A DNA stretch of 64,000 nucleotides from Pseudomonas japonica (GTDB lineage Bacteria > Pseudomonadota > Gammaproteobacteria > Pseudomonadales > Pseudomonadaceae): positions 175,293-239,292 of the forward strand of contig NZ_FZOL01000002.1 of NCBI RefSeq assembly GCF_900188455.1, written 5' to 3'. This document shows positions 50,226 through 60,665 of the stretch, in pieces. The number at the start of each line of letters is the position of its first letter. Position 1 is the stretch's first letter. The translations under genes and the position numbers were made by a program. A model generated the notes under the pieces. It saw only the letters and a list, made by a program, of their open reading frames with translations. It searched no databases and was not told the DNA's origin.

Positions 50226-50346
50226 GTAAAACCTGAATCCCGAATCTGCCTGATCCCACCTGGGTACCAGACCTCCCAAAACCCACCACCCAAAAACACC
50301 GAAAGCCCCGAAATACGGGGCTTCCAACAGGATCACAACGAATAGG

Positions 50347-50374
50347 TTTACAGAACCAAACCGATCGCTATAAT
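50347..50374 (+). promoter_or_regulatory. Promoter of tRNA-Thr
   Basis: TTTACA (50347-50352), 16-base spacer, consensus TATAAT (50369-50374), 14 bases before the tRNA. Confidence 0.85.
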
Positions 50375-50388
50375 AGCGCGCCTACCTT

Positions 50389-50464
<76 letters not shown>

Positions 50465-50506
50465 TTCAAGGTTCCATAGAAAGCTTTCAAAATCTCTGGA
50501 ACCCCC

Positions 50507-50537
50507 GAAAAACCCGCCTTATGGCGGGTTTTTTCGT
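50507..50537 (+). terminator. Terminator of tRNA-Thr
   Basis: AAAACCCGCC-TTAT-GGCGGGTTTT hairpin and T-run. Confidence 0.92.
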
Positions 50538-50707
50538 TTTGGCGTTCCGTCGGATTTCGAGGGGAGCCACAGCTCATAAGGGTATTTCCAGTTCGATTTT
50601 GGAAAGCATCCTGATGGCCGGACCACCGCCCCGCTCATAGACACCGACTGCCGCACGGCAAGGTCAGAGAGTGCAAGCACAAGCTTTTTCGATGGCGTCG
50701 ACCGCAG

Positions 50708-50753
50708 CTCACAAGACAAGGGCCCACACTGCTGCGGGCCTTTGTCTTGTGAG
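50708..50753. repeat. Long inverted repeat at the end of the glycan operon
   Basis: Left arm CTCACAAGACAAGGGCCC (50708-50725) and right arm GGGCCTTTGTCTTGTGAG (50736-50753) pair over eighteen positions with one non-Watson-Crick pair; the loop is ten bases. It lies 39 bases past the stop of the last gene of the minus-strand operon. Could terminate or protect that transcript, though there is no terminal T-run. Confidence 0.75.
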
Positions 50754-50791
50754 GTGGCTAAATCGAAGTTGATCCGAAACGGCTCGCACCG

Positions 50792-51928
50792 TCAGCGCAC
50801 AGCTCGCTCCAACGCATCCACAACTCGCGCTTGCTGCTCAGCAGTCATCCCGACCCAAAGCGGCAAACGGATCAGCCTGGCCGCCTGGTTGACGGTAACC
50901 TCCAGAGCACCCTGCACCCGGCCATACCTGCGCCCGCCAGGCGAATCATGCAGGGGTACATAATGGAACACTGCCTGCACACCTTGCGCCTTGAGATAGT
51001 CGAGCACAGCCGGACGATCCAATTCTGGAGAAAGCAAAACGTAATACATGTGCGCATTGTGCTGGCATTCGACTGGTATGACGGGGCGGCGAATGGCACC
51101 AGTGGCCTCCAGCGGCTTTAGTGCGGAGTCATATCGCTGCCAGATGGCCAGACGCTCGTTGGTAATCCATTGAGCCTCCTGTAATTGCGCCCAGAGGAAA
51201 GCCGCCGTGATTTCGCCAGGCAGGAATGACGAACCCACTTCCTGCCACGTGTATTTGTCGACTTCGCCACGGAAGAAACGACTGCGGTCAGTCCCTTTCT
51301 CACGGATGATTTCCGCCTGCAACGCGCTTTCCGGTGAATTCACCAGCAAGGCGCCACCTTCACCACAAATCACGTTCTTGGTTTCATGAAAACTGAATGC
51401 ACCATAGTCACCTATGGCTCCCAGCGCACGTCCCTTGTAACTGGCCATCACCCCCTGTGCCGCATCCTCGACCACCTTCAGGCCGTAACGACCAGCGATC
51501 TCCATGAGGCGGTCCATCTCGCAGGCCACACCGGCATAGTGCACAGGTACGATGGCGCGGGTCCTCGGCGTGATGGCTTCTTCCACCAAGGACTCGTCGA
51601 GATTGAGCGTATCCGCACGAATATCGACGAATACCGGGACTGCGCCGCGCAGCACGAAGGCATTGGCGGTCGAGACGAACGTGAACGAAGGCAGGATTAC
51701 TTCATCCCCCGGTTGCAACTCCAGCAACAAGGCGGCCATCTCCAGAGCCGCTGTGCACGAATGCGTCAGCAGCGCCTTGCTGCTGCCCGTGCGCTCCTGC
51801 AGCCACTGATGACAACGTTTGGTGAAACCACCGTCCCCCGCCAACCTGTTCTGAAATTTCGCCTCGGCAATGTGGAACAACTCCTTGCCTGTCATGTAGG
51901 GACTATTGAAGGGGATAAGGTCAGCCAT
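50792..51928 (-). CDS. wecE: dTDP-4-amino-4,6-dideoxygalactose transaminase
   Basis: 378-residue DegT/DnrJ/EryC1 aminotransferase, clearly of the WecE/RffA type: MADLIPFNSPYMTGKEL, LCGDGG-like AGDGGFTKRCHQWL, SFTFVSTANAFVLRGAVPVF and VPVHYAGVACEMD. The PLP lysine is Lys184 in FSFHETKN. The known reaction is transfer of an amino group from glutamate to dTDP-4-dehydro-6-deoxy-D-glucose, giving dTDP-Fuc4N. RmlA/RmlB, which would make the substrate, are not in the window. Last gene of the seven-gene glycan operon. Confidence 0.93.
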   Translation of the reverse strand: MADLIPFNSPYMTGKELFHIAEAKFQNRLAGDGGFTKRCHQWLQERTGSSKALLTHSCTAALEMAALLLELQPGDEVILPSFTFVSTANAFVLRGAVPVFVDIRADTLNLDESLVEEAITPRTRAIVPVHYAGVACEMDRLMEIAGRYGLKVVEDAAQGVMASYKGRALGAIGDYGAFSFHETKNVICGEGGALLVNSPESALQAEIIREKGTDRSRFFRGEVDKYTWQEVGSSFLPGEITAAFLWAQLQEAQWITNERLAIWQRYDSALKPLEATGAIRRPVIPVECQHNAHMYYVLLSPELDRPAVLDYLKAQGVQAVFHYVPLHDSPGGRRYGRVQGALEVTVNQAARLIRLPLWVGMTAEQQARVVDALERAVR

Positions 51929-51994
51929 CGTTACCAGCCTCAGTTAGAGAATGAAGATCCGAGCTGTTCCATGATCTCGCGCATAAGCTGAACG

Positions 51995-52879
51995 TCATGG
52001 TCTCTTCCGTGATTGGGTCTTGCTGATTCGGCAGTCGATTATGGGTTGCATGCTCGCGGGGATGAAGCTCAAGAGCTTGTGCAAACGCACCTTCACCATC
52101 GCGGTGATCAGAGAACACACAAGAGGGGAACGGCGACGAGCGAACAGTGGGTCGCTCAATATGCGCTCAAAGGCGCAGACCAGCATGCTGCGGTCGAATC
52201 TCACCTGCATCCGTCCCGACCGACGGACAATACCGGCAACCTGCGGCACGGTGATCCAGTTCAGCGACCGCCACGTCCCAACGGGATCGGTAACCCTTCT
52301 ACTGTTGAAAATCCTGGGTCCGAGCACTCTCTCGGTCAACCTCTTGGAAAACAGGGTGGGCAAGTTGAAGTGAGGCTCGTAGGGGAACAGATAGTTGGCG
52401 CATGTGAAACGATAAGTCGCGCCAGCCTTCAGACTATCCGCGACACGCTCCAGCGTAGCGCCGACATCATCCACGTGCTCCATTACGTTGACGGAGAATC
52501 CATAGTCGAAAGTGTCTGGCTGATCCAACTGCTCGGCGCGAATGGCACATAACGTTGGCTCGAAGCCCCCCTCGCCCGCACTCTCCAGCACAACCTGGCG
52601 CATGCGCTCGAAATGCGAGAAGCCACTTCCAGTAGGCTCCAGCGCCGTAACCTTGAAGCCTTCCCGGGTCAGTTGACTGCTAAGCAACATTGCGCCAGCA
52701 CCTACTTCAAGGATGGCACTGCCGGCCGGCAGGTGCTCCAGGTCAGGCGCAATCAGACGCCGGCCGAACAAGGCCTCTTCCGCATACGTGTCGAACAGGG
52801 TCTGCGCCTCTGCATCGGGCATACGCGCACGCAAGTGCGCGAACCATTGCTGCATGCCTTCGAGGATCGACTCAAGCAT
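51995..52879 (-). CDS. Class I SAM-dependent methyltransferase
   Basis: 294 residues with motif I AILEVGAGAMLLSSQLTREG (near 55), an acidic ALEPTGSGF strand end and the motif FSVNVMEHVDDVGATL. The C-terminal third is basic and may carry amphipathic or membrane-associated segments (SPLVCSLITAMVKVRLHKLLSF). In this setting it probably methylates a sugar or lipid-linked sugar; the acceptor is unknown. Its start overlaps the end of the small transporter gene by eight bases. Confidence 0.85.
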   Translation of the reverse strand: MLESILEGMQQWFAHLRARMPDAEAQTLFDTYAEEALFGRRLIAPDLEHLPAGSAILEVGAGAMLLSSQLTREGFKVTALEPTGSGFSHFERMRQVVLESAGEGGFEPTLCAIRAEQLDQPDTFDYGFSVNVMEHVDDVGATLERVADSLKAGATYRFTCANYLFPYEPHFNLPTLFSKRLTERVLGPRIFNSRRVTDPVGTWRSLNWITVPQVAGIVRRSGRMQVRFDRSMLVCAFERILSDPLFARRRSPLVCSLITAMVKVRLHKLLSFIPASMQPIIDCRISKTQSRKRP

Positions 52880-53240
52880 CGGAGGACATCCCCAGAAGGA
52901 TACCGCCCAGAATCAGCAACGCGGCCATAATCTTCGCCCAACCCAGTGCCTCACCAAGGATCATGTGGCTACCCACCAGCACCAGCAGGAAGGTAGTACC
53001 GATATAGACCGGAAAGGCGACAGCCAGCGGCATGCGGGCCACGACGAACAACCAGACGAAGGAGGCGATAAGGGCAGCGGCATAGCCCGACATCAGAACC
53101 GGATCTTTCAGGAACGCCATCAAGCGATCGATCACTTGATCGGAGGGCGCCGCCGGGGTGGCCTGGGCACGCCATTTCACAATCAGCTGGCTGTAGCTGA
53201 CCAGTAAGGCGACGGGCAGGATGAGCAAGTAATATTTCAT
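52872..53240 (-). CDS. Small four-helix transporter, ArnE/EmrE-like (probable lipid-linked sugar flippase)
   Basis: 122 residues with four predicted helices and the EamA/SMR pattern: LLVSYSQLIVKWRAQ in helix 1, MPLAVAFPVYIGTTFLLVLVGSHMILGEALGW later. The membrane glutamate that couples drug export to protons in EmrE is absent from helix 1 (hydrophobic there). That argues against a multidrug pump and for the ArnE/ArnF-like branch that flips undecaprenyl-phosphate sugars. Neighbours support the flippase reading. Confidence 0.8.
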   Translation of the reverse strand: MKYYLLILPVALLVSYSQLIVKWRAQATPAAPSDQVIDRLMAFLKDPVLMSGYAAALIASFVWLFVVARMPLAVAFPVYIGTTFLLVLVGSHMILGEALGWAKIMAALLILGGILLGMSSDA

Positions 53241-53265
53241 GGATAACTTTCCGCGTGTACGGTTT

Positions 53266-53952
53266 TCAATGCGCAGAACCGGGGTAATCGGCGATGCGTT
53301 GCCACATGGCTTGATCTAGAAGCCCGTGATCCAACGCGACGTCCGGATTGACGAAAACAGGGCGGCCACCCAGTTGGTGAGTACTGCACGGCAAGGCAGG
53401 AGAACCGCCATGCAGGAGAATCGCGTTGAGCAGACTCAGGCAGCCAGCGCGGAAAACGATATCCATCACCGAGGCAACAGCGTCGCCCGGTTGCAACGGA
53501 ATAGCGCCCTGCACCAGGGGGCGACCGGTATCCACGCCGCTATCGACCAGATGGGCCGTCACCCCGGTAAATGGACTGCCCGCCTCGAGGGCTGCGGCGA
53601 CCGGTGTGGTTCCGATCGTTGCGGCATAGGCCGGCAGCAGGGAATAGTGCAGATTCAGCAGGCGACCTGCGAAAGCCTCGACCACCTCCGGCACGATGAT
53701 GCGATGCACATTGGTAATGACTACGTCAGGGCCTGCCGCATCCAGCATTCGCGCCAGACTCACCTGCCCGGGCTCGCTGAAATCGATGACCTCGCTGGGA
53801 ATATGGTGTTCGAGTGCAAAGCGATTGGCCAGGCACTCCCGGTCGGTGATGACCGATACCAACTGTGCCGGTAGTACGCCAAGTCGGATGACCTCGGAGA
53901 TGAAGCGCAGGTTGCCTCCGCCACCGGAGCAGAGAAAAGCAATCCGTATCAT
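53266..53952 (-). CDS. Formyltransferase-fold protein, probable sugar N-formyltransferase
   Basis: 228 residues of the PurN/methionyl-tRNA formyltransferase fold. It opens MIRIAFLCSGGGGNLRF as PurN does, and keeps the catalytic triad Asn100-His102 (LLNLHYSLLPAY) and Asp141 (VDSGVDTGRP). So N10-formyl-tetrahydrofolate-dependent formyl transfer is likely. In a cluster with WecE the natural acceptor would be the 4-amino group of a nucleotide sugar, giving a 4-formamido sugar. It overlaps the upstream glycosyltransferase by four bases. A second purN is ruled out only by context. Confidence 0.85.
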   Translation of the reverse strand: MIRIAFLCSGGGGNLRFISEVIRLGVLPAQLVSVITDRECLANRFALEHHIPSEVIDFSEPGQVSLARMLDAAGPDVVITNVHRIIVPEVVEAFAGRLLNLHYSLLPAYAATIGTTPVAAALEAGSPFTGVTAHLVDSGVDTGRPLVQGAIPLQPGDAVASVMDIVFRAGCLSLLNAILLHGGSPALPCSTHQLGGRPVFVNPDVALDHGLLDQAMWQRIADYPGSAH

Positions 53953-54878
53953 TTTTTATGCCCTTGATAAATCTGGCGAACGATGGAATACGGACGCTGC
54001 TTCACTTCGGAAAAGATCTTCGACAGATAGATACCGATGACCCCTACCGAAGATATCAACATCCCGCCGATCAGCCAGATGGACGCCATCAAGGATGTCC
54101 AGCCGCTGAGCGTACGGCTGAAGAAGAGCCAGTTCAGTACCAGATACACATTGGCCGCCAGCGCCAGCGCCGAAATGAATGCACCGATATAGAAGATCGC
54201 AGTCAATGGCTTGTTGGAAAATGAAGTGATGGAATTGACCAGCAGCGCGATCTTGTGTCGCAACGTATAGGTGGATGCTCCACGGCTGAGCTTATGGACC
54301 ACGAAAGGTATCTGCTTGAAGCCAGTAATATGCCAGAGGCCGGCCATGAACACTTCGCGCTCCTCATGGCGCACCAGCGCGTCGACATAGCGGCGGGTCA
54401 TCAGCCGTGCTGTAACGATGTTGGGCGTCAGGGACATATCGGTAAGCGCGTTGAACATGCTCCAGAACCAGCTCCCGCTCCAGCGCTCGAACAGACCGCC
54501 CTTGCGGGCCTCCTGGACGCCGTAGACCACATCGGCCTGCCCCTGTGCCAAGGCGTCAGCGAAGGGTGAAAGCCACTCGGGGTCTTCTTCCAGATCGCTG
54601 TCGATCAGGAAGACAAGGTCCGCAGTGCTGTGCGCCAGCCCGGTCATCATCGCCTTGTGATGTCCGAAGTTACGCGACAGGTCCACCACCACTACGCGGG
54701 GATCAGCGTCCGCCAGTGCCATCGCCAGCGCCAGCGAGTCATCGGGCGACCCATCGTTGACCAGAATGAGTTCATAGTCATCACCGGCATACGCAACCGC
54801 CGCCGCACTGGCACGACGGTGGAACTCGGCGAGAAAGGACGCGGACTTGTACAGGGTGGCTACGATGGAAAGTTTCAT
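53949..54878 (-). CDS. Family 2 glycosyltransferase, ArnC/GtrB-type
   Basis: 309 residues: GT-A domain with LSIVATLYKSASFLAEF at the start, ILVNDGSPDDS, DLSRNFGHHKAMMTGL and LIDSDLEEDPEWL (DxD-like). It then has two C-terminal membrane helices (about 230-255 and 265-290). This layout is that of polyprenyl-phosphate glycosyltransferases (ArnC, GtrB, DPM1), which move a sugar from a nucleotide to undecaprenyl phosphate on the inner leaflet. Coupled by overlaps to both neighbours. Confidence 0.93.
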   Translation of the reverse strand: MKLSIVATLYKSASFLAEFHRRASAAAVAYAGDDYELILVNDGSPDDSLALAMALADADPRVVVVDLSRNFGHHKAMMTGLAHSTADLVFLIDSDLEEDPEWLSPFADALAQGQADVVYGVQEARKGGLFERWSGSWFWSMFNALTDMSLTPNIVTARLMTRRYVDALVRHEEREVFMAGLWHITGFKQIPFVVHKLSRGASTYTLRHKIALLVNSITSFSNKPLTAIFYIGAFISALALAANVYLVLNWLFFSRTLSGWTSLMASIWLIGGMLISSVGVIGIYLSKIFSEVKQRPYSIVRQIYQGHKK

Positions 54879-55570
54879 TTCTGCACGAACTTCATGTAGG
54901 TGGCAGCATTAGGGCCGCAGTTGAATAACAGATCGAGCACGCTGACCTCATGCACGAAGTCGCCCCACAACTGGGCGTAGTCGGGATAGCCAGAGTAATC
55001 GAAATAGGTCACCTTGATTCCTTCCCTGGCGAACAGCCCTTCTTCGAGGTAGGCGCGCGCCGCACCACCAGTGACATACTCCGTGGCCCCGGCTTGCTTG
55101 CACAGGTTGATCAGTCTTTCGGTCTTGTCCCCCTCGAGCACATAGTCGGTCGAACGGCTCAGTCGGGTAGAGATACCCAGATAATTGCAGATAGCCCCCA
55201 GAAGGGCTTGATTGATCTCGGACAGGTTGTCGAGACCAGAGGTATAGAGTGGGCGCAACCAGCCCGAGATCTCGTCGAAGAAGGGACTACGGCGATAGTT
55301 CGCTTCCAGAGTATTCCAGTGTCGTACTGCCCAGCGCGAATCGCTGACGGTCACATCGCAGATACGCCGATGGATAGCTCCACCCACGGGAACGCTCAAC
55401 CATTGCAAACCCTGTGGCGTCTTGATCTTGTTGCGATTGCGCCAATCATTCTTGGTGTACTGCATCTCGTCGTAAAAGATGAACTCGTCCACGCACGCAA
55501 TCATATCCACATAACCTTTCCAGGGAATGTAGTTCGATTGCAGAATCGCAATTGATTTCTCTCTGCCCAT
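54875..55570 (-). CDS. WbqC family protein
   Basis: 231-residue cytosolic protein of the WbqC family: IAILQSNYIPWKGYVDMI at the start, DEMQYTKNDWRNRNKIKT, then GLQWLSVPV and NYLGISTRLSRSTDY. Such genes occur in O-antigen and other polysaccharide loci, often with DegT aminotransferases, but no reaction is established. It may modify the amino sugar or its acyl group. Overlaps the following glycosyltransferase by four bases and starts 3 bases after the preceding stop. Confidence 0.9.
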   Translation of the reverse strand: MGREKSIAILQSNYIPWKGYVDMIACVDEFIFYDEMQYTKNDWRNRNKIKTPQGLQWLSVPVGGAIHRRICDVTVSDSRWAVRHWNTLEANYRRSPFFDEISGWLRPLYTSGLDNLSEINQALLGAICNYLGISTRLSRSTDYVLEGDKTERLINLCKQAGATEYVTGGAARAYLEEGLFAREGIKVTYFDYSGYPDYAQLWGDFVHEVSVLDLLFNCGPNAATYMKFVQK

Positions 55571-55573
55571 TTT

Positions 55574-56839
55574 TTATCCCGCCCGCGCGCCCAGCATGCC
55601 CCACGCAGGGAAATAACAATCCGTGCAATTCCCCGCCTGGGCAATTTTGGTCAGGTTGAACTGGATCAGAAACGCCAGGACAAACAGCCAAACCAGATAG
55701 TGACTGGAAAATGCTTCTCGAGTAGCGAAGTTGATCACTGCCCATGCCACCAAGGGCCCTACCAGCAGCGCGTCATATAGATACGGGTGAATCGAAACCG
55801 CCTGGGGCCAGAACAACAGCATCAGGAGGTAGACCGAGAACAGTTGCAATATGCCGTGCGTATCGCTCACCTGGTGCGATGCCAGAGCGCTCACAGCCGA
55901 CTGCCAGCGGCAATAGGCGAACTGGACGCACAGCAGAAGTACAGGAATAGCGATCAGGTAAAAGGGACGATTGAATTGCGGTGCTACAACCGAATCGATG
56001 AAGTTCCCGTAGAAACGCATATCTCCATCAAGACCGGAACGGAACAGCCACGTGCTGTTTTCGCTGGAAAACCCCAGTGCTTTGGCCACCAGTACCGGTT
56101 GCAGATAAACCACGATTGAAACCGCCATCAGTATCAGGGAGGCCATTATCCTGCGCTTCTCGCCGCGATGAACCAGCAGCGCCATGCCCAGCATGAACAC
56201 ACTGAAGAGCGCCGAGGCCATCGGCATGACCAGGCACAGTGACAAGCTGCTGATCCAGAACGCTTTCCCTTTGGCACTGTCACGCTCCAGCAGAACGCTG
56301 GTCAGCATCAGCAAGGGAAAGACGAAGACGAAGCCATTATCGACATTGAATTTCCCCAGCGAAATCCAGAACCCCGGCAAAGTCAGGAAATACAGGAAGG
56401 CGGCCAGTACCAGCAGACCGCGACGCCAATCACTGATGGCCAAAAGCGGACGTCGCACCGAAAACCAGATAACGCCCAGCGAAGCCAGCATGGCCAGGGT
56501 GGCGCCGGTCATCCGCATGGTCAGCGCTGGCGCCCATTGCTGTAGCTGGAACAGGCCTCTCATGAACCATAGATAAACGGTCGAGTGGTTGGCGTAGGCC
56601 TCGTGCTTGGCATAGGCATCGGCGGTCAGGAAAGTCAGGAAACCGTGCTGGGCCAGCGACTCGCTGTGCCAAACAGGGAATGTGAAGTCCCGCAGCCTTT
56701 CAGGGGCTGCATCGGCACGCACTGCCATAGCGTGAAAGCCCAGGTGATAGACCAGCGAAAATCCGATAACTACGGTCAAGCAAAACGCAAACGTAAAGAC
56801 TAGACGCTTCGACATTGGGAAGGGGCCGGCATGCTTCAT
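55574..56839 (-). CDS. Multi-pass membrane protein, probable GT-C-type glycosyltransferase
   Basis: 421 residues with about ten membrane helices. After the first helix there is a roughly 60-residue periplasmic loop with acidic and aromatic residues (DFTFPVWHSESLAQHG, YAKHEAYANHSTVYLWF), the layout of lipid-phosphate-sugar-dependent GT-C enzymes such as ArnT and the serotype Gtr proteins. No close family recognised. It would attach the flipped sugar to its acceptor. First gene of the operon. The start is 56839 or the ATG at 56813-56815 (MSKRLVF); neither has a strong ribosome site. Less G+C-rich than core genes. Confidence 0.75.
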   Translation of the reverse strand: MKHAGPFPMSKRLVFTFAFCLTVVIGFSLVYHLGFHAMAVRADAAPERLRDFTFPVWHSESLAQHGFLTFLTADAYAKHEAYANHSTVYLWFMRGLFQLQQWAPALTMRMTGATLAMLASLGVIWFSVRRPLLAISDWRRGLLVLAAFLYFLTLPGFWISLGKFNVDNGFVFVFPLLMLTSVLLERDSAKGKAFWISSLSLCLVMPMASALFSVFMLGMALLVHRGEKRRIMASLILMAVSIVVYLQPVLVAKALGFSSENSTWLFRSGLDGDMRFYGNFIDSVVAPQFNRPFYLIAIPVLLLCVQFAYCRWQSAVSALASHQVSDTHGILQLFSVYLLMLLFWPQAVSIHPYLYDALLVGPLVAWAVINFATREAFSSHYLVWLFVLAFLIQFNLTKIAQAGNCTDCYFPAWGMLGARAG

Positions 56840-57092
56840 GGAAAGATGAGGACTGGATTAATAAATTTTCACGATCATACACAGTTATTTCTGCATCGTT
56901 AAAGACAACGACTTTCACAGCGGCGAGGAGGCTACGCAGGGGATAGTTGTCGGCGTGCAGATGCGTCGCAAGGTGCCGTCGGTTGGAAATCACTGGAACT
57001 TAATGCATCTGACAACGGGCTAATCCATATGAATAGCGAAATCGCAAGACTGTGAGGTCGCCATCGTCTTCCAAACCCGAGCGAGCCCTTCC

Positions 57093-58109
57093 GTGAGCGA
57101 CCCTCAAATCCTCCCCGCCGGCCTCCACTACGTCGACGACACCACCCGGGGCCTCTCCCGCCGCAAGCTCCGCGGCAAATTCGCCTACTTCAACACCCTG
57201 GGCCAACGCATCCGCGTCCCCGAAGAGATCCAGCGCATCAACGCCCTGGCCATTCCCCCCGCCTACACCGACGTGTGGATCTGCCCCGACCCCAACGGCC
57301 ATCTCCAGGCCACCGGCCGCGATGCCCGGGGCCGCAAGCAGTACCGCTACCACCCACGCTGGCGCGAGATTCGCGACGAGGACAAGTACGCCAGCCTGCT
57401 GGCCTTCGGCAAGGCCCTGCCCAGCCTGCGCGAAACCCTGCAGCAACACCTGGCCCTGACCGAGCACAGTCGCGAAAAGGTTCTCGCCACGGTCATCCAC
57501 CTGCTCGACGAAACCCTGATCCGCATCGGCAACACCCGCTACGCCGAGCAGAACCGCTCCTACGGCCTGACCACCCTGCGCAACCGTCATGTCGATGTCA
57601 GCGGCAGCACCATTCGCTTCCACTTCCGCGGCAAGAGCGGCATCGAGCATGAGGTCAGCGTCAACGACCGGCGACTGGCGCGCATCATCAAGCGCTGCCT
57701 GGAATTGCCCGGCCAACAGCTGTTCCAGTACCTGGACGAGAACGGCGAACGCCACAGCGTCACGTCCAGCGATATCAATCGCTATCTGCAGGAACTGACC
57801 GGCGCCGAATTCACCGCCAAGCACTACCGCACCTGGGCCGGCAGCGCGCTGGCCCTGACTCTGCTGCGTGAACTGGAATGGCAGCCGGAAACCACGGCGA
57901 AAAAACACGTGGTGGCAATCATCAAGGAAGTCGCCCGCGAGCTGCGCAATACGCCGGCCGTGTGCCGCAAGTGCTATATCCACCCGGCATTGATCGAGGC
58001 CTTCCACGCCGGAGAACTGGCCGGCCTGCGCATGGCCGCGGCGCGCAAGGGGCTGCGGGAAGAGGAGAGCCTGCTGATGCGCTTTCTCGAAAAACTGGCC
58101 CAGGCCTGA
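57093..58109 (+). CDS. DNA topoisomerase IB, poxvirus/bacterial type
   Basis: 338-residue monomeric type IB enzyme relaxing supercoils. N-terminal bacterial topo IB domain (LHYVDDTTRGLSRRKLRGKFAYF, IPPAYTDVWICPDPNGHLQATG), catalytic domain with HFRGKSGIEHEVSV, KHYRTWAGSAL (arginine) and the nucleophile Tyr295 in CRKCYIHP. GTG start at 57093; no better in-frame ATG is nearby. It sits just beyond the glycan operon, in the opposite direction. Confidence 0.95.
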   Translation: MSDPQILPAGLHYVDDTTRGLSRRKLRGKFAYFNTLGQRIRVPEEIQRINALAIPPAYTDVWICPDPNGHLQATGRDARGRKQYRYHPRWREIRDEDKYASLLAFGKALPSLRETLQQHLALTEHSREKVLATVIHLLDETLIRIGNTRYAEQNRSYGLTTLRNRHVDVSGSTIRFHFRGKSGIEHEVSVNDRRLARIIKRCLELPGQQLFQYLDENGERHSVTSSDINRYLQELTGAEFTAKHYRTWAGSALALTLLRELEWQPETTAKKHVVAIIKEVARELRNTPAVCRKCYIHPALIEAFHAGELAGLRMAAARKGLREEESLLMRFLEKLAQA

Positions 58110-58467: not shown

Positions 58468-58820
58468 GGTGAATCTCCTTTTATGTCTTTAAGAAGAAGT
58501 CACCGCCTGCGACCAAACAGGTTGGTGACGACTGTGCGCAGGTTGGTCGACCGAGACAAAAAGGCAAAACCCGGCAGGCACGAATGCCTCCCACGCACAG
58601 CCGCCATAGCACGAACCTACAGACGTAGAACGCCCGTACACGTGGATGAACAGCGATAGCATTTTTGTCAGCCGGGCGACCAAACCCGATCGCCAAACCG
58701 CAGCGACCGCGAAAGCCTACCGTCCAACCCCGGATGAGGCAAGGAAACGCTGCCATCGGCATCGTTGAGGTATCGTTACCCATCAACCTGCGAAAAAAGC
58801 AGCCGCCCGAGGAGAACCTA
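58468..58820. other. Intergenic region before the AlbA_2 regulator gene
   Basis: About 350 bases between divergent genes. Frames on both strands extend across it but lack ribosome sites or recognisable protein; the in-frame extension upstream of 58821 is not conserved-looking (Arg/Pro-rich). Confidence 0.5.
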
Positions 58821-60665
58821 ATGCCGCAAGCCTCCATGACTCTGGATGCGCTGCTGAACCTGCTGCAGCTTGGCGAAGATCAGGAAGTCGAGTTCAAGTC
58901 CGCCAGCGGCGGCCTGCCCAAGTCGTTATGGGAAACGTTTTCGGCCATGGCCAATAGCGAAGGGGGTTGCATTGTCCTGGGCGTCGTAGAGCGCCGAGGC
59001 GCCTGCGTCCTGGAACCGCTGCGAGATACCAGTGCTTTGCGCAAGGCATTCTGGGACTTGCACAACAACCCGCAAAAGCTCAGCGCCCCATTGTGTCGAG
59101 ACAGCGATCTGACCGTCCTGCCCAGCGGGGATGGTGAAGTGCTCATCATCCAGGTCCCCCGCGCAAAGCGGCAGCAACGTCCTGTGTACCTCAATGGCAA
59201 TCCGCTGGTTGGCAGTTACAAGCGCAACCATGAAGGTGACTATCGGTGCTCTGAAGCCGAGGTCAAACAGATGTTGCGTGACGCCTCGGACGAAGCTCAG
59301 GACGCCAGGCTGCTGACTGGCTTCCAGCGCCAGGACCTGGACGATGCCACCTTGGCCGCGTTTCGCAATCGCTTTTCCGCTCGCGACCCAGACCATCCTT
59401 TCCTGGCTCAAGATGAAAAAACCTTTCTCGAAAGCCTGGGCGCCTGGCGCCGTGATCGGCAGAGCGGACAAGAGGGCGTGACACTTGCCGGGCTATTGAT
59501 GTTCGGCAAGGAACGCAGCCTGCTGGATGCACTGCCGCATTATCAACTGGATTATCAGGAACAACTGACCAGCGACCCTGACGTACGCTGGACCTATCGA
59601 CTGACACCTGACGGCAAATGGATACCTAATCTGTTCAACTTCTACTACGGCGTATTCCCGCGCCTCAGCAAAGAGTTGGACGTGCCCTTCAAGACTGATC
59701 GTCTCGGCACTCGTCAAGGCGAAACCCATGTTCATGAGGCATTGCGCGAAGCGCTGGTCAATAGCCTGGTCCACGCCGACCACCAATCCAGCCGCCCCAT
59801 TACCGTCATTCGCCGATCAGACTCGTTCGTCTTCAGCAACCCCGGCTTGTTACGAGTTCCCCGTGATCAGCTCTACCAAGGAGGCGTGAGCGATCCACGC
59901 AACCCCGATCTGTTGAAAATGTTCCAGTTGCTGGGGCTTGGCGAACGTGCCGGATCAGGATTCCAACGCATCGTAAGGGCATGGCGCGAGCAGAACTGGT
60001 TGGTTCCACTGGTCTCCGAGCTGATTGGCCTGGAAATGACGGAAATCAATCTGCCGCTGGCAAGCATGATTCCAGAAGACGTCGAACGCGAATTACGGGC
60101 ATTAGTCGGCGATGCGTATCCCGCGCTGGACGATTTGAGCCGAACCATCCTGATCATCGCGCACAGCTTCGGCGAAGTACGCAATCTCGACCTCCAGCCC
60201 CAACGCTCGGAACACCCTCGCGTCATCGGTGAGCATCTGAGCCAGTTGGCAAATGCGGGATGGCTGGTAAAGCAGGGCCATGGCAAAGGCACCCGCTATC
60301 GTTGGCCTGGCGAAACACCCGCAGATCTGCTGATGAATGCCGAGCGTTCAAGCCACTCTCCCCTTCCCACCGGGGAAGTCACTGGGGAAGTCACTGGGGA
60401 AGTCACCGGGGAAGTCACCGGGGAAGTCACCGGGGAAGTCGCGAGGCTCGTCCGGACTTTGCGCGGCGAGATGAAACGCTCGGATATGCAGGATGCCCTC
60501 GGTCTCAAACATGAGGACTACTTTCGGACTGCGTACTTGAAACCTGCTCTGACCAATGGCTTGATCGAAATGACAATACCCGACAGGCCCCGCAGTCGCC
60601 TGCAACGCTATCGCCTCACTGCCCAAGGCCGTTCGCTCCAGGAAGCACTCAGCCAGAATGGCTGA
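58821..60665 (+). CDS. AlbA_2 (Schlafen-type) / HATPase_c_4 regulator with TGEV repeats
   Basis: 614 residues. An N-terminal AlbA_2 domain (about 10-130) includes GEDQEVEFKSASGGLPKSLWE, ANSEGGCIVLGV and the later NPLVGSYKRNHEGDYRCS. The ATP-binding region near 310-420 has VHEALREALVNSLVHADH and GERAGSGFQRIV. A winged-helix part follows, then six tandem Thr-Gly-Glu-Val units (about 517-540) and a final winged helix like that of Fic proteins (LIEMTIPDRPRSRLQRYRLT). Members (COG2865) are poorly characterised nucleic-acid-binding regulators often found in defence and mobile regions. ATG 58821 has GGAG seven bases upstream. The fic gene follows 112 bases later. Confidence 0.88.
   Translation: MPQASMTLDALLNLLQLGEDQEVEFKSASGGLPKSLWETFSAMANSEGGCIVLGVVERRGACVLEPLRDTSALRKAFWDLHNNPQKLSAPLCRDSDLTVLPSGDGEVLIIQVPRAKRQQRPVYLNGNPLVGSYKRNHEGDYRCSEAEVKQMLRDASDEAQDARLLTGFQRQDLDDATLAAFRNRFSARDPDHPFLAQDEKTFLESLGAWRRDRQSGQEGVTLAGLLMFGKERSLLDALPHYQLDYQEQLTSDPDVRWTYRLTPDGKWIPNLFNFYYGVFPRLSKELDVPFKTDRLGTRQGETHVHEALREALVNSLVHADHQSSRPITVIRRSDSFVFSNPGLLRVPRDQLYQGGVSDPRNPDLLKMFQLLGLGERAGSGFQRIVRAWREQNWLVPLVSELIGLEMTEINLPLASMIPEDVERELRALVGDAYPALDDLSRTILIIAHSFGEVRNLDLQPQRSEHPRVIGEHLSQLANAGWLVKQGHGKGTRYRWPGETPADLLMNAERSSHSPLPTGEVTGEVTGEVTGEVTGEVTGEVARLVRTLRGEMKRSDMQDALGLKHEDYFRTAYLKPALTNGLIEMTIPDRPRSRLQRYRLTAQGRSLQEALSQNG
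60369..60440 (+). repeat. Twelve-base tandem repeat, six copies, within the AlbA_2 gene
   Basis: Six in-frame copies of ACYGGGGAAGTC (Y is C or T), encoding Thr-Gly-Glu-Val each time. Copies differ only at the third base, so the array is nearly perfect and prone to slippage in whole codons. Confidence 0.95.

Follow-up and report, generated by a model that had tools for sequence, protein, structure and literature searches.

A seven-gene operon of Pseudomonas japonica predicted to make and display an acylated 4-amino sugar, with WbqC as a candidate amino-acid ligase

What does a WbqC family protein do in an operon that otherwise resembles machinery for loading a sugar onto a lipid carrier? This question is raised by seven genes of Pseudomonas japonica in a 64,000-nucleotide stretch (NCBI RefSeq assembly GCF_900188455.1, contig NZ_FZOL01000002.1, positions 175,293 to 239,292), hereafter the window. 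An earlier note on this DNA described a set of seven mostly overlapping or nearly touching genes, and both points held up: all seven open reading frames (ORFs) were found at 50792-56839 on the minus strand, in the transcription order GT-C, WbqC, GtrB/ArnC-like, formyltransferase, ArnF-like, methyltransferase, and WecE, with spacings in the same order of +3, -4, -4, +25, -8, and +66 bases (from ORF coordinates; gap positive, overlap negative). The note also expected a simple 4-formamido sugar, which we no longer favor because the predicted fold of WbqC is BshC/synthetase-like, the 4-amine is reported to be aminoacylated in Escherichia coli O121 and O123, and the formyltransferase is nearer to PurN. 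Here, we propose that WbqC probably acts as an amino-acid ligase on a 4-amino sugar, a reading drawn from the BshC/class I synthetase-like fold of a predicted model and from the E. coli O antigen structures, and, on balance, we favor the view that a modified 4-amino-4,6-dideoxy sugar is built and displayed through this operon by a WecE/WbqC/PurN-like/GtrB/SMR/GT-C route.

The window protein is a member of the WbqC family (PF08889, 271 bits against a cut-off of 21.3), and its AlphaFold model, built with 60 sequences, reached a pLDDT of 94.4. The core fold of this predicted model is that of BshC: VIA aligned it with BshC 4wbd at a Z of 14.7 and an rmsd of 3.2 over 221 of the 231 residues, followed by class I lysyl-tRNA synthetase (Z 11.3 over 172 residues) and then by tyrosyl-tRNA synthetases and phosphopantetheine adenylyltransferases (PPAT) near 8. 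Foldseek also placed BshC 4wbd at the top (E 4.6e-3, probability 1.00), with no match at 1e-3. BshC is the cysteine ligase of bacillithiol, i.e., it forms an amide bond between an amino acid and the amine of an amino sugar. It is named among the bacillithiol synthesis enzymes (PMC12719100), and MshC, a class I synthetase relative, joins cysteine to the glucosamine amine in mycothiol (PMC2922099). Shared motifs of WbqC and BshC picked out by eye, i.e., a glycine-rich N-terminal loop and Y-x-x-G-P-x(4)-Y near WbqC residue 165 and near 350 in one BshC, were rejected and are not counted because a second profile alignment paired other regions; the latter motif is present in most aligned WbqC, and the window protein has Gly for its Pro. 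The family name probably comes from the O121 cluster, since wbqE and wbqF are O121 genes (PMC5005322). In the titles and abstract openings of a largely open-access literature we found no described function of WbqC, a weak negative as subscription journals lie mostly outside it. Many bacterial surface antigens contain amino sugars that bear an amino acid (PMC10609480), and the available parts of the literature on them name no enzyme for joining the amino acid to the 4-amine of 4-amino-4,6-dideoxyglucose (Qui4N) or 4-amino-4,6-dideoxygalactose (Fuc4N).

The O-antigen clusters of E. coli provide a natural comparison, with each serogroup assigned by how wzx is annotated or by the name of the strain. 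A vioA probe had matches in 171 of 5426 E. coli genomes, and among 11 aminotransferase loci examined, three carry WbqC (O121 and two O123/O186); in the stretches fetched for the other eight (O7, O116, O39, O49, strain Z142-3, strain H14, one capsule-like, and one plasmid), WbqC is not listed. In the clusters with O116, O7, and O39 wzx, VioA is paired with an acetyl- or acyltransferase and the fetched stretches hold no WbqC; please note that the O39 vioA is frameshifted in the strain examined and that strain H14, with an O116-type wzx, has no acyltransferase listed beside vioA. WbqC of the O121 type was found in 13 of the 5426 genomes, in each directly abutted by DegT and GNAT genes (five records named O121, one O103, the others unlabelled), and the O123/O186 form in 10, although these E. 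coli probes would miss more diverged WbqC genes. The gene order is rfbB-rfbA-DegT-WbqC-GNAT-wzx(O121) in O121 (L157), where only WbqC and a GNAT acetyltransferase lie between aminotransferase and wzx, and DegT-WbqC-324aa-GNAT-MaoC in O123/O186, the third being a protein of 324 amino acids. Three comparable serogroups have a structure stated in print, two with WbqC (O121, O123) and one without (O116). Qui4N with N-acetylglycyl is cited to E. coli O121 and with acetyl to O116 (PMC3210612); in O123 it bears N-[(S)-3-hydroxybutyryl]-D-alanyl, and N-acetylglycyl also occurs in Shigella dysenteriae D7 (PMC10609480). By these published structures, an amino acid sits on the 4-amine in both WbqC serogroups and a plain acetyl in the sole structure-stated control, and the DegT-WbqC-GNAT set of O121 fits acetylation of a glycyl amine. 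The E. coli plasmid locus (L189:5947-9393) has an aminotransferase, a GNAT acetyltransferase, a pyridoxal-phosphate (PALP) enzyme, and a PylC-like ATP-grasp protein, a set that may include another kind of amino-acid ligase serving the same end.

The formyltransferase of the window has a Formyl_trans_N domain, and the earlier note was right that it keeps Asn-His-Asp (Asn100, His102, and Asp141 are invariant in all seven aligned formyltransferases). With a seven-sequence profile, the top 17 PDB structures are all PurN/GART (3.7e-29 to 1.7e-18), followed by formyltetrahydrofolate deformylases and methionyl-tRNA formyltransferase; sugar formyltransferases come in only from 6.4e-10. The enzyme scores 98.3 bits with the PurN model, below the cut-off of 150.1 for curated membership, and a role as the housekeeping PurN is ruled out by a separate PurN elsewhere in the genome, which scores 259.7 bits, above the same cut-off, and is 31% identical over 173 aligned positions. 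A search at E 1e-40 for the same PurN-like subfamily beside WbqC matched one of 398 in the phylum, the window's own genome. The substrate of PurN, glycinamide ribonucleotide, is itself a glycyl amide of an amino sugar and receives the formyl group on its glycyl amine, so that a PurN-like enzyme beside a putative glycyl ligase is chemically apt. By this analogy, formylation of the aminoacyl amine has, in our judgment, somewhat better than even chances; it is likelier than formylation of the sugar amine because the enzyme is nearer to PurN, and because of the WbqC fold and the O121/O123 aminoacyl structures.

Three further genes very likely constitute a Gtr-type three-part system, as the earlier note had suggested, here combined with its own dTDP-sugar synthesis. 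The 309-residue protein has a Glycos_transf_2 domain, sub-threshold and nearly full-length matches to PgfS (182.7 bits, cut-off 500) and ArnC (133.7, cut-off 529), and PDB matches to 5ekp (sll0501; E 1.5e-42, residues 2-303) and ArnC 9hwj (E 1.4e-34); judged from its sequence, it is the predicted GtrB-type polyprenyl-phosphate glycosyltransferase of such a system. The 122-residue protein has no Pfam match and reaches 28.1 bits with the ArnF model NF002816 (cut-off 99), short of curated ArnE/ArnF membership. Its first membrane helix (about residues 2-22, by eye) has no Glu, which bears out the earlier observation that the EmrE glutamate is absent. For its role we turned to related loci from a WbqC profile scan of genome contigs, i.e., the best 80 of at least 551 relatives (at least 590 pattern matches). 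These loci were chosen by WbqC, so the presence of WbqC is itself no evidence, many are mutually related, and each of the pairs L028/L063 and L029/L070 is probably one locus counted twice. In the same-strand chains of the 80 loci, GtrA is present in 29, an ArnF-like SMR protein in 29, both in none, and neither in 22 (one-sided Fisher p 3e-8, ignoring relatedness), and the 54 chains with both GtrB and WecE divide into 25, 25, 0, and 4. Parsimony on a 57-row GtrB tree gives 16 changes of flippase type (48-55 of 500 shuffles were as low), and starred branches force at least five; the tree has poor resolution, with stars on 8 of its 54 inner branches and several long rows. Within one operon, small membrane proteins of two unrelated kinds take each other's place, which is good evidence that GtrA and SMR do the same job and supports the three-part reading; the ArnF-like gene, exchangeable with GtrA, would be the small membrane flippase, and in such lipid-carried side-sugar operons the flippase appears to be swapped like a module.

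The GT-C assignment of the earlier note is likewise supported, at moderate confidence. The 421-residue protein matched no Pfam or NCBIfam family, and its AlphaFold2 model, from nine sequences, has a pLDDT of 69.8. The first eight PDB matches in Foldseek are all GT-C (STT3, AglB, ArnT, AftB, DPY19; best E 1.2e-3). In VIA, the first 42 rows have a Z of 8.4-15.1 and include OST, ArnT, PglB, AftA/B, Pmt4, ALG, and Emb, with ArnT 5f15 at Z 14.5 over 337 residues; the next row is a designed protein at Z 5.4. The model thus points to a GT-C fold for the third component of the system.

The operon is one variant of a widespread modular operon family. In 65 of the 80 loci the GtrB gene begins less than 100 bases after WbqC, and 64 have a WecE/DegT-type gene; the 16 without one include four contigs below 6 kb and at least six loci of about 20 kb (L049, L053, L077, L083, L090, and L110). 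A search for the conserved gene set, which the earlier note had called for, found the order of the window's seven genes elsewhere only in L027 and L039 among the loci examined, with near variants in L042, L041, and L102; the note's remark that the combination is unfamiliar therefore stands for this exact order and fails for the operon family, which is common. Three Rhizobium-group plasmid loci have WbqC with partly similar neighbors, with rffA and rmlA in two and rmlB also in one of these. As for the tailoring genes, a formyltransferase is found in seven of the 80 loci, a hexapeptide acetyltransferase in 48, both in one, and neither in 26; two of the seven formyltransferases (L082, L083) score just 67 and 50 bits and may be of another kind. 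One hexapeptide acetyltransferase was tested and scores 164.9 bits with the NeuD/PglB/VioB model, above its cut-off of 160.8; enzymes of this family usually have the sugar amine itself as their target. A protein of 306 amino acids with a weak GH130 match (L030:9659-10579 and homologues) accompanies the hexapeptide acetyltransferase (46 versus 48 of 80 loci).

Taken together, the following pathway may be sketched. RmlA and RmlB, whose genes both score above cut-offs and are found on the same contig beyond the edge of the window, at a distance of about 14 kb from the operon, would supply dTDP-4-keto-6-deoxyglucose. WecE, whose family assignment in the earlier note is borne out (TIGR02379, 611.1 bits, cut-off 434.85; NF008687, 603.5 bits, cut-off 375; PDB matches 6blg at E 2.7e-145 and 4piw at E 1.7e-143), would, as in its family, aminate C4 to give dTDP-Fuc4N. 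WbqC would then join an amino acid, most likely glycine, to the 4-amine, a reaction suggested by the modeled fold and by the E. coli O antigens, and the PurN-like enzyme would formylate the free amine of the aminoacyl group, as PurN does on glycinamide ribonucleotide; the methyltransferase may methylate N or O. By family, GtrB is expected to move the sugar onto undecaprenyl phosphate, the ArnF-like SMR protein to flip the undecaprenyl-phosphate sugar, and the GT-C enzyme to transfer it to a periplasmic acceptor, e.g., O antigen, lipopolysaccharide (LPS) core, or another glycan. The predicted product is a 4-(N-formylaminoacyl)amino-4,6-dideoxy-galactose side group. As a broader and tentative proposal, the WbqC family (PF08889) could be a stand-alone, tRNA-independent amino-acid ligase with the BshC/class I synthetase fold, at work on 4-amino sugars in numerous bacteria and phages, with the window operon repeating purine chemistry on a surface sugar to give 4-(N-formylglycyl)amino-4,6-dideoxygalactose via a three-component system. 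For WbqC as a candidate enzyme there are a reaction that can be tested, a fold prediction, and serotype structures that agree with it; if this is true, WbqC becomes a predictor of surface chemistry.

Several observations weigh against this reading. None of 60 WbqC members matches PF10079 (BshC), the sequence similarity of WbqC and BshC is not significant (hhalign E 0.34 and 0.12 for two WbqC alignments of 60 and 138 rows against 25 BshC), and the identity of the window WbqC with its E. coli counterparts is just 23% (O121) and 29% (O123). The 324-residue protein between WbqC and GNAT in O123/O186 (L158:9801-10775) has no Pfam match and could be the ligase there, an asnB-type gene lies further along the O121 cluster, which our comparison covers short of its far end, and one of the 13 genomes with O121-type WbqC is labelled O103. 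The choice of glycine draws on O121 and the PurN analogy only. Finally, a hexapeptide acetyltransferase, in the member tested of the NeuD/PglB/VioB family, is present in 48 of the 80 loci, and 13 of the 54 loci with GtrB and WecE have neither it nor a formyltransferase.

These points bear on three other explanations. The formyltransferase could use dTDP-Fuc4N itself as its substrate, with a plain 4-formamido sugar as the product, while WbqC does something else, e.g., at another position; the catalytic residues are kept, nucleotide amino sugar formyltransferases are among the weaker PDB matches, and the common hexapeptide acetyltransferase (one member of the VioB family) suggests a sugar amine as the usual target, but the enzyme is a closer relative of PurN than of the sugar formyltransferases, O121 links WbqC with an aminoacyl substituent, and WbqC, common to operons with and without a formyltransferase, would be left unexplained, so that we consider this unlikely. 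We find it more doubtful still that WbqC is an accessory, nucleotidylyltransferase-like or a partner of the aminotransferase, with the amino acid added by another enzyme or not at all. The PPAT/CoaD match of the model (Z about 8), the frequent link with DegT enzymes, the 324-residue protein of O123/O186, and the E. coli plasmid DegT-GNAT-PALP-ATP-grasp locus without WbqC, by which other ligases may serve, speak for it; yet the BshC match is well above PPAT (221 residues versus about 120-130), and O121 has WbqC and GNAT alone between aminotransferase and wzx. That the operon is ordinary three-component glycosylation machinery with no new chemistry seems very improbable to us, even though GtrB, a small flippase, and GT-C are a known set (PMC11127046, PMC8035078) and the proposed Citrobacter youngae flippase is small, four-helix, and ArnE/EmrE-like (PMC11127046), since in the window operon WecE, WbqC, and a PurN-like enzyme come on top of this set, and none of the three is seen in the available parts of the three-component descriptions in those two papers.

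WbqC is also found in mobile and viral DNA, with matches in 37 plasmid records and three phage records. Among 24 viral contigs carrying WbqC, 22 have a DegT-like gene in the stretches compared, indicating that the link of WbqC with an aminotransferase holds outside cellular genomes. The viral DegT-like genes are of a short form (203-219 amino acids) in 18 contigs, three of which also have the full form, and of the full form only in four. By eye, the short protein (L122, L123, L125-L138, L140, L142) apparently keeps the cofactor aspartate and lysine regions and lacks the middle stretch and C-terminal part of the usual 370-residue enzyme; its gene lies less than 50 bases from WbqC in six of the 18 and further away in the rest, and two examples match part of a PHROGs aminotransferase family. 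Two WbqC proteins gave no match in PHROGs, and, at E 1e-3, the GT-C gene had none among 50,697 phage records. The window's own genome has another WbqC gene, a distant one (28% identity), which immediately adjoins a DegT aminotransferase gene (L033:6780-8659).

The features of the operon and its flanks are collected in Table 1. The earlier note saw a lower-G+C block beside tRNA-Thr; the tRNA gene and the contrast on the left stand, with G+C in 2-kb windows of 0.547-0.588 in the operon and 0.609-0.676 on the left side (42-51 kb), whereas the right-hand boundary is weak because the right side is at only 0.579-0.621. No repeat of tRNA-Thr, sought as an integration sign, was found within 50300-57200. 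In a relative (G009; L199:8613-11664), tRNA-Thr is followed by about 3 kb of different sequence and then by the same topoisomerase IB gene as in the window, so that the interval from tRNA-Thr to topoisomerase IB (window 50464-57093) is a variable site; in 17-kb stretches from two further relatives, the topoisomerase gene is present without the tRNA gene. The GT-C gene is rare in the genus (five of 398 genomes, the window's own included). A terminator-like site lies on the minus strand at 50740-50721, in a region where the total of such sites is below that of shuffles. Further along, the window encodes a 666-residue Schlafen AlbA_2 domain protein (58665-60665), whose C-terminal part has a run of repeated TGEV residues.

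Table 1. Features of the seven-gene operon and its immediate flanks in the window
Feature	Position	Strand	Basis
GT-C fold membrane glycosyltransferase, 421 aa (amino acids); proposed final transfer	55574..56839	-	ORF; AlphaFold2 model; Foldseek and VIA matches
WbqC family protein, 231 aa; proposed amino-acid ligase on 4-amino sugar	54875..55570	-	PF08889; model; BshC fold; E. coli O121/O123 gene-structure match
GtrB/ArnC-type polyprenyl-phosphate glycosyltransferase, 309 aa	53949..54878	-	PDB profile matches
PurN-like formyltransferase, 228 aa; proposed to formylate aminoacyl amine	53266..53952	-	PDB profile matches; Asn-His-Asp
ArnF-like SMR-type protein, 122 aa; proposed undecaprenyl-phosphate-sugar flippase	52872..53240	-	Sub-threshold NF002816; replaces GtrA in homologous operons
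S-adenosylmethionine-dependent methyltransferase, 294 aa; proposed N-/O-methylation	51995..52879	-	Methyltransf_23/11
WecE/RffA-type dTDP-4-keto-6-deoxyglucose 4-aminotransferase, 378 aa	50792..51928	-	TIGR02379; PDB 6blg, 4piw
Terminator-like inverted repeat directly after operon	50705..50756	.	24-nt arms, 88% complementary, 4-nt loop
tRNA-Thr flanking operon	50389..50464	+	ARAGORN
Weak promoter-like match upstream of first gene	56874..56902	-	2 such matches in region against a shuffle mean of 3.1; not evidence of function

How does the operon compare with known systems? The Arn pathway (ArnB-ArnA-ArnC-ArnE/F-ArnT) consists of a 4-aminotransferase, a formyltransferase, a polyprenyl-phosphate transferase, an SMR-type flippase, and a GT-C enzyme, i.e., the same five kinds of enzyme and transporter as in the window. 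In that pathway, the formyl group is put on the sugar amine by ArnA and taken off again at a later step; in contrast, the window operon has a formyltransferase of the PurN kind, a sugar expected to be dTDP-linked, a WbqC, and no deformylase among its seven genes. With the Gtr-type or three-component systems (Shigella GtrA-GtrB-Gtr; Citrobacter youngae O1/O2), the operon shares the polyprenyl-phosphate sugar synthase, the small membrane flippase, and the GT-C transferase, and it differs from them in also carrying genes for making and tailoring the amino sugar (WecE, WbqC, PurN-like, methyltransferase). The flippase candidate of C. youngae has four helices and similarity to ArnE/EmrE; its authors call it a MATE transporter and state that flipping was not directly shown (PMC11127046). 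The E. coli O121 cluster is alike in its 4-aminotransferase, WbqC, and N-acyl enzyme, although there the sugar belongs to a Wzx/Wzy O-antigen backbone, the group is acetyl rather than formyl, and the WbqC is distant. A predicted seryl-tRNA-synthetase-like system, in which synthetase-derived proteins ligate an amino acid to the amine of a cell-surface sugar, is close in purpose (PMC2922099); its proposed parts are a synthetase paralogue, a carrier protein, and another ligase (Atu2574), and the word WbqC does not occur in the available parts of that paper. BshC and MshC share with WbqC a synthetase-like fold and, if our reading is right, the formation of an amide that links an amino acid to the amine of an amino sugar (MshC: PMC2922099), and further modification of such an amine is known from NmbA, which N-methylates the cysteine amine of bacillithiol (PMC12719100). 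They differ from WbqC in making low-molecular-weight thiols, in size (the solved BshC has 540 residues, more than twice WbqC), and in having no significant sequence similarity to it. In purine synthesis, PurD and PurN turn an amino sugar into a glycyl amide and then place a formyl group on the glycyl amine. PurD is an ATP-grasp enzyme, unlike WbqC, and the genome has its own PurN elsewhere; the likeness lies in the formyltransferase of the window, which is of the PurN kind.

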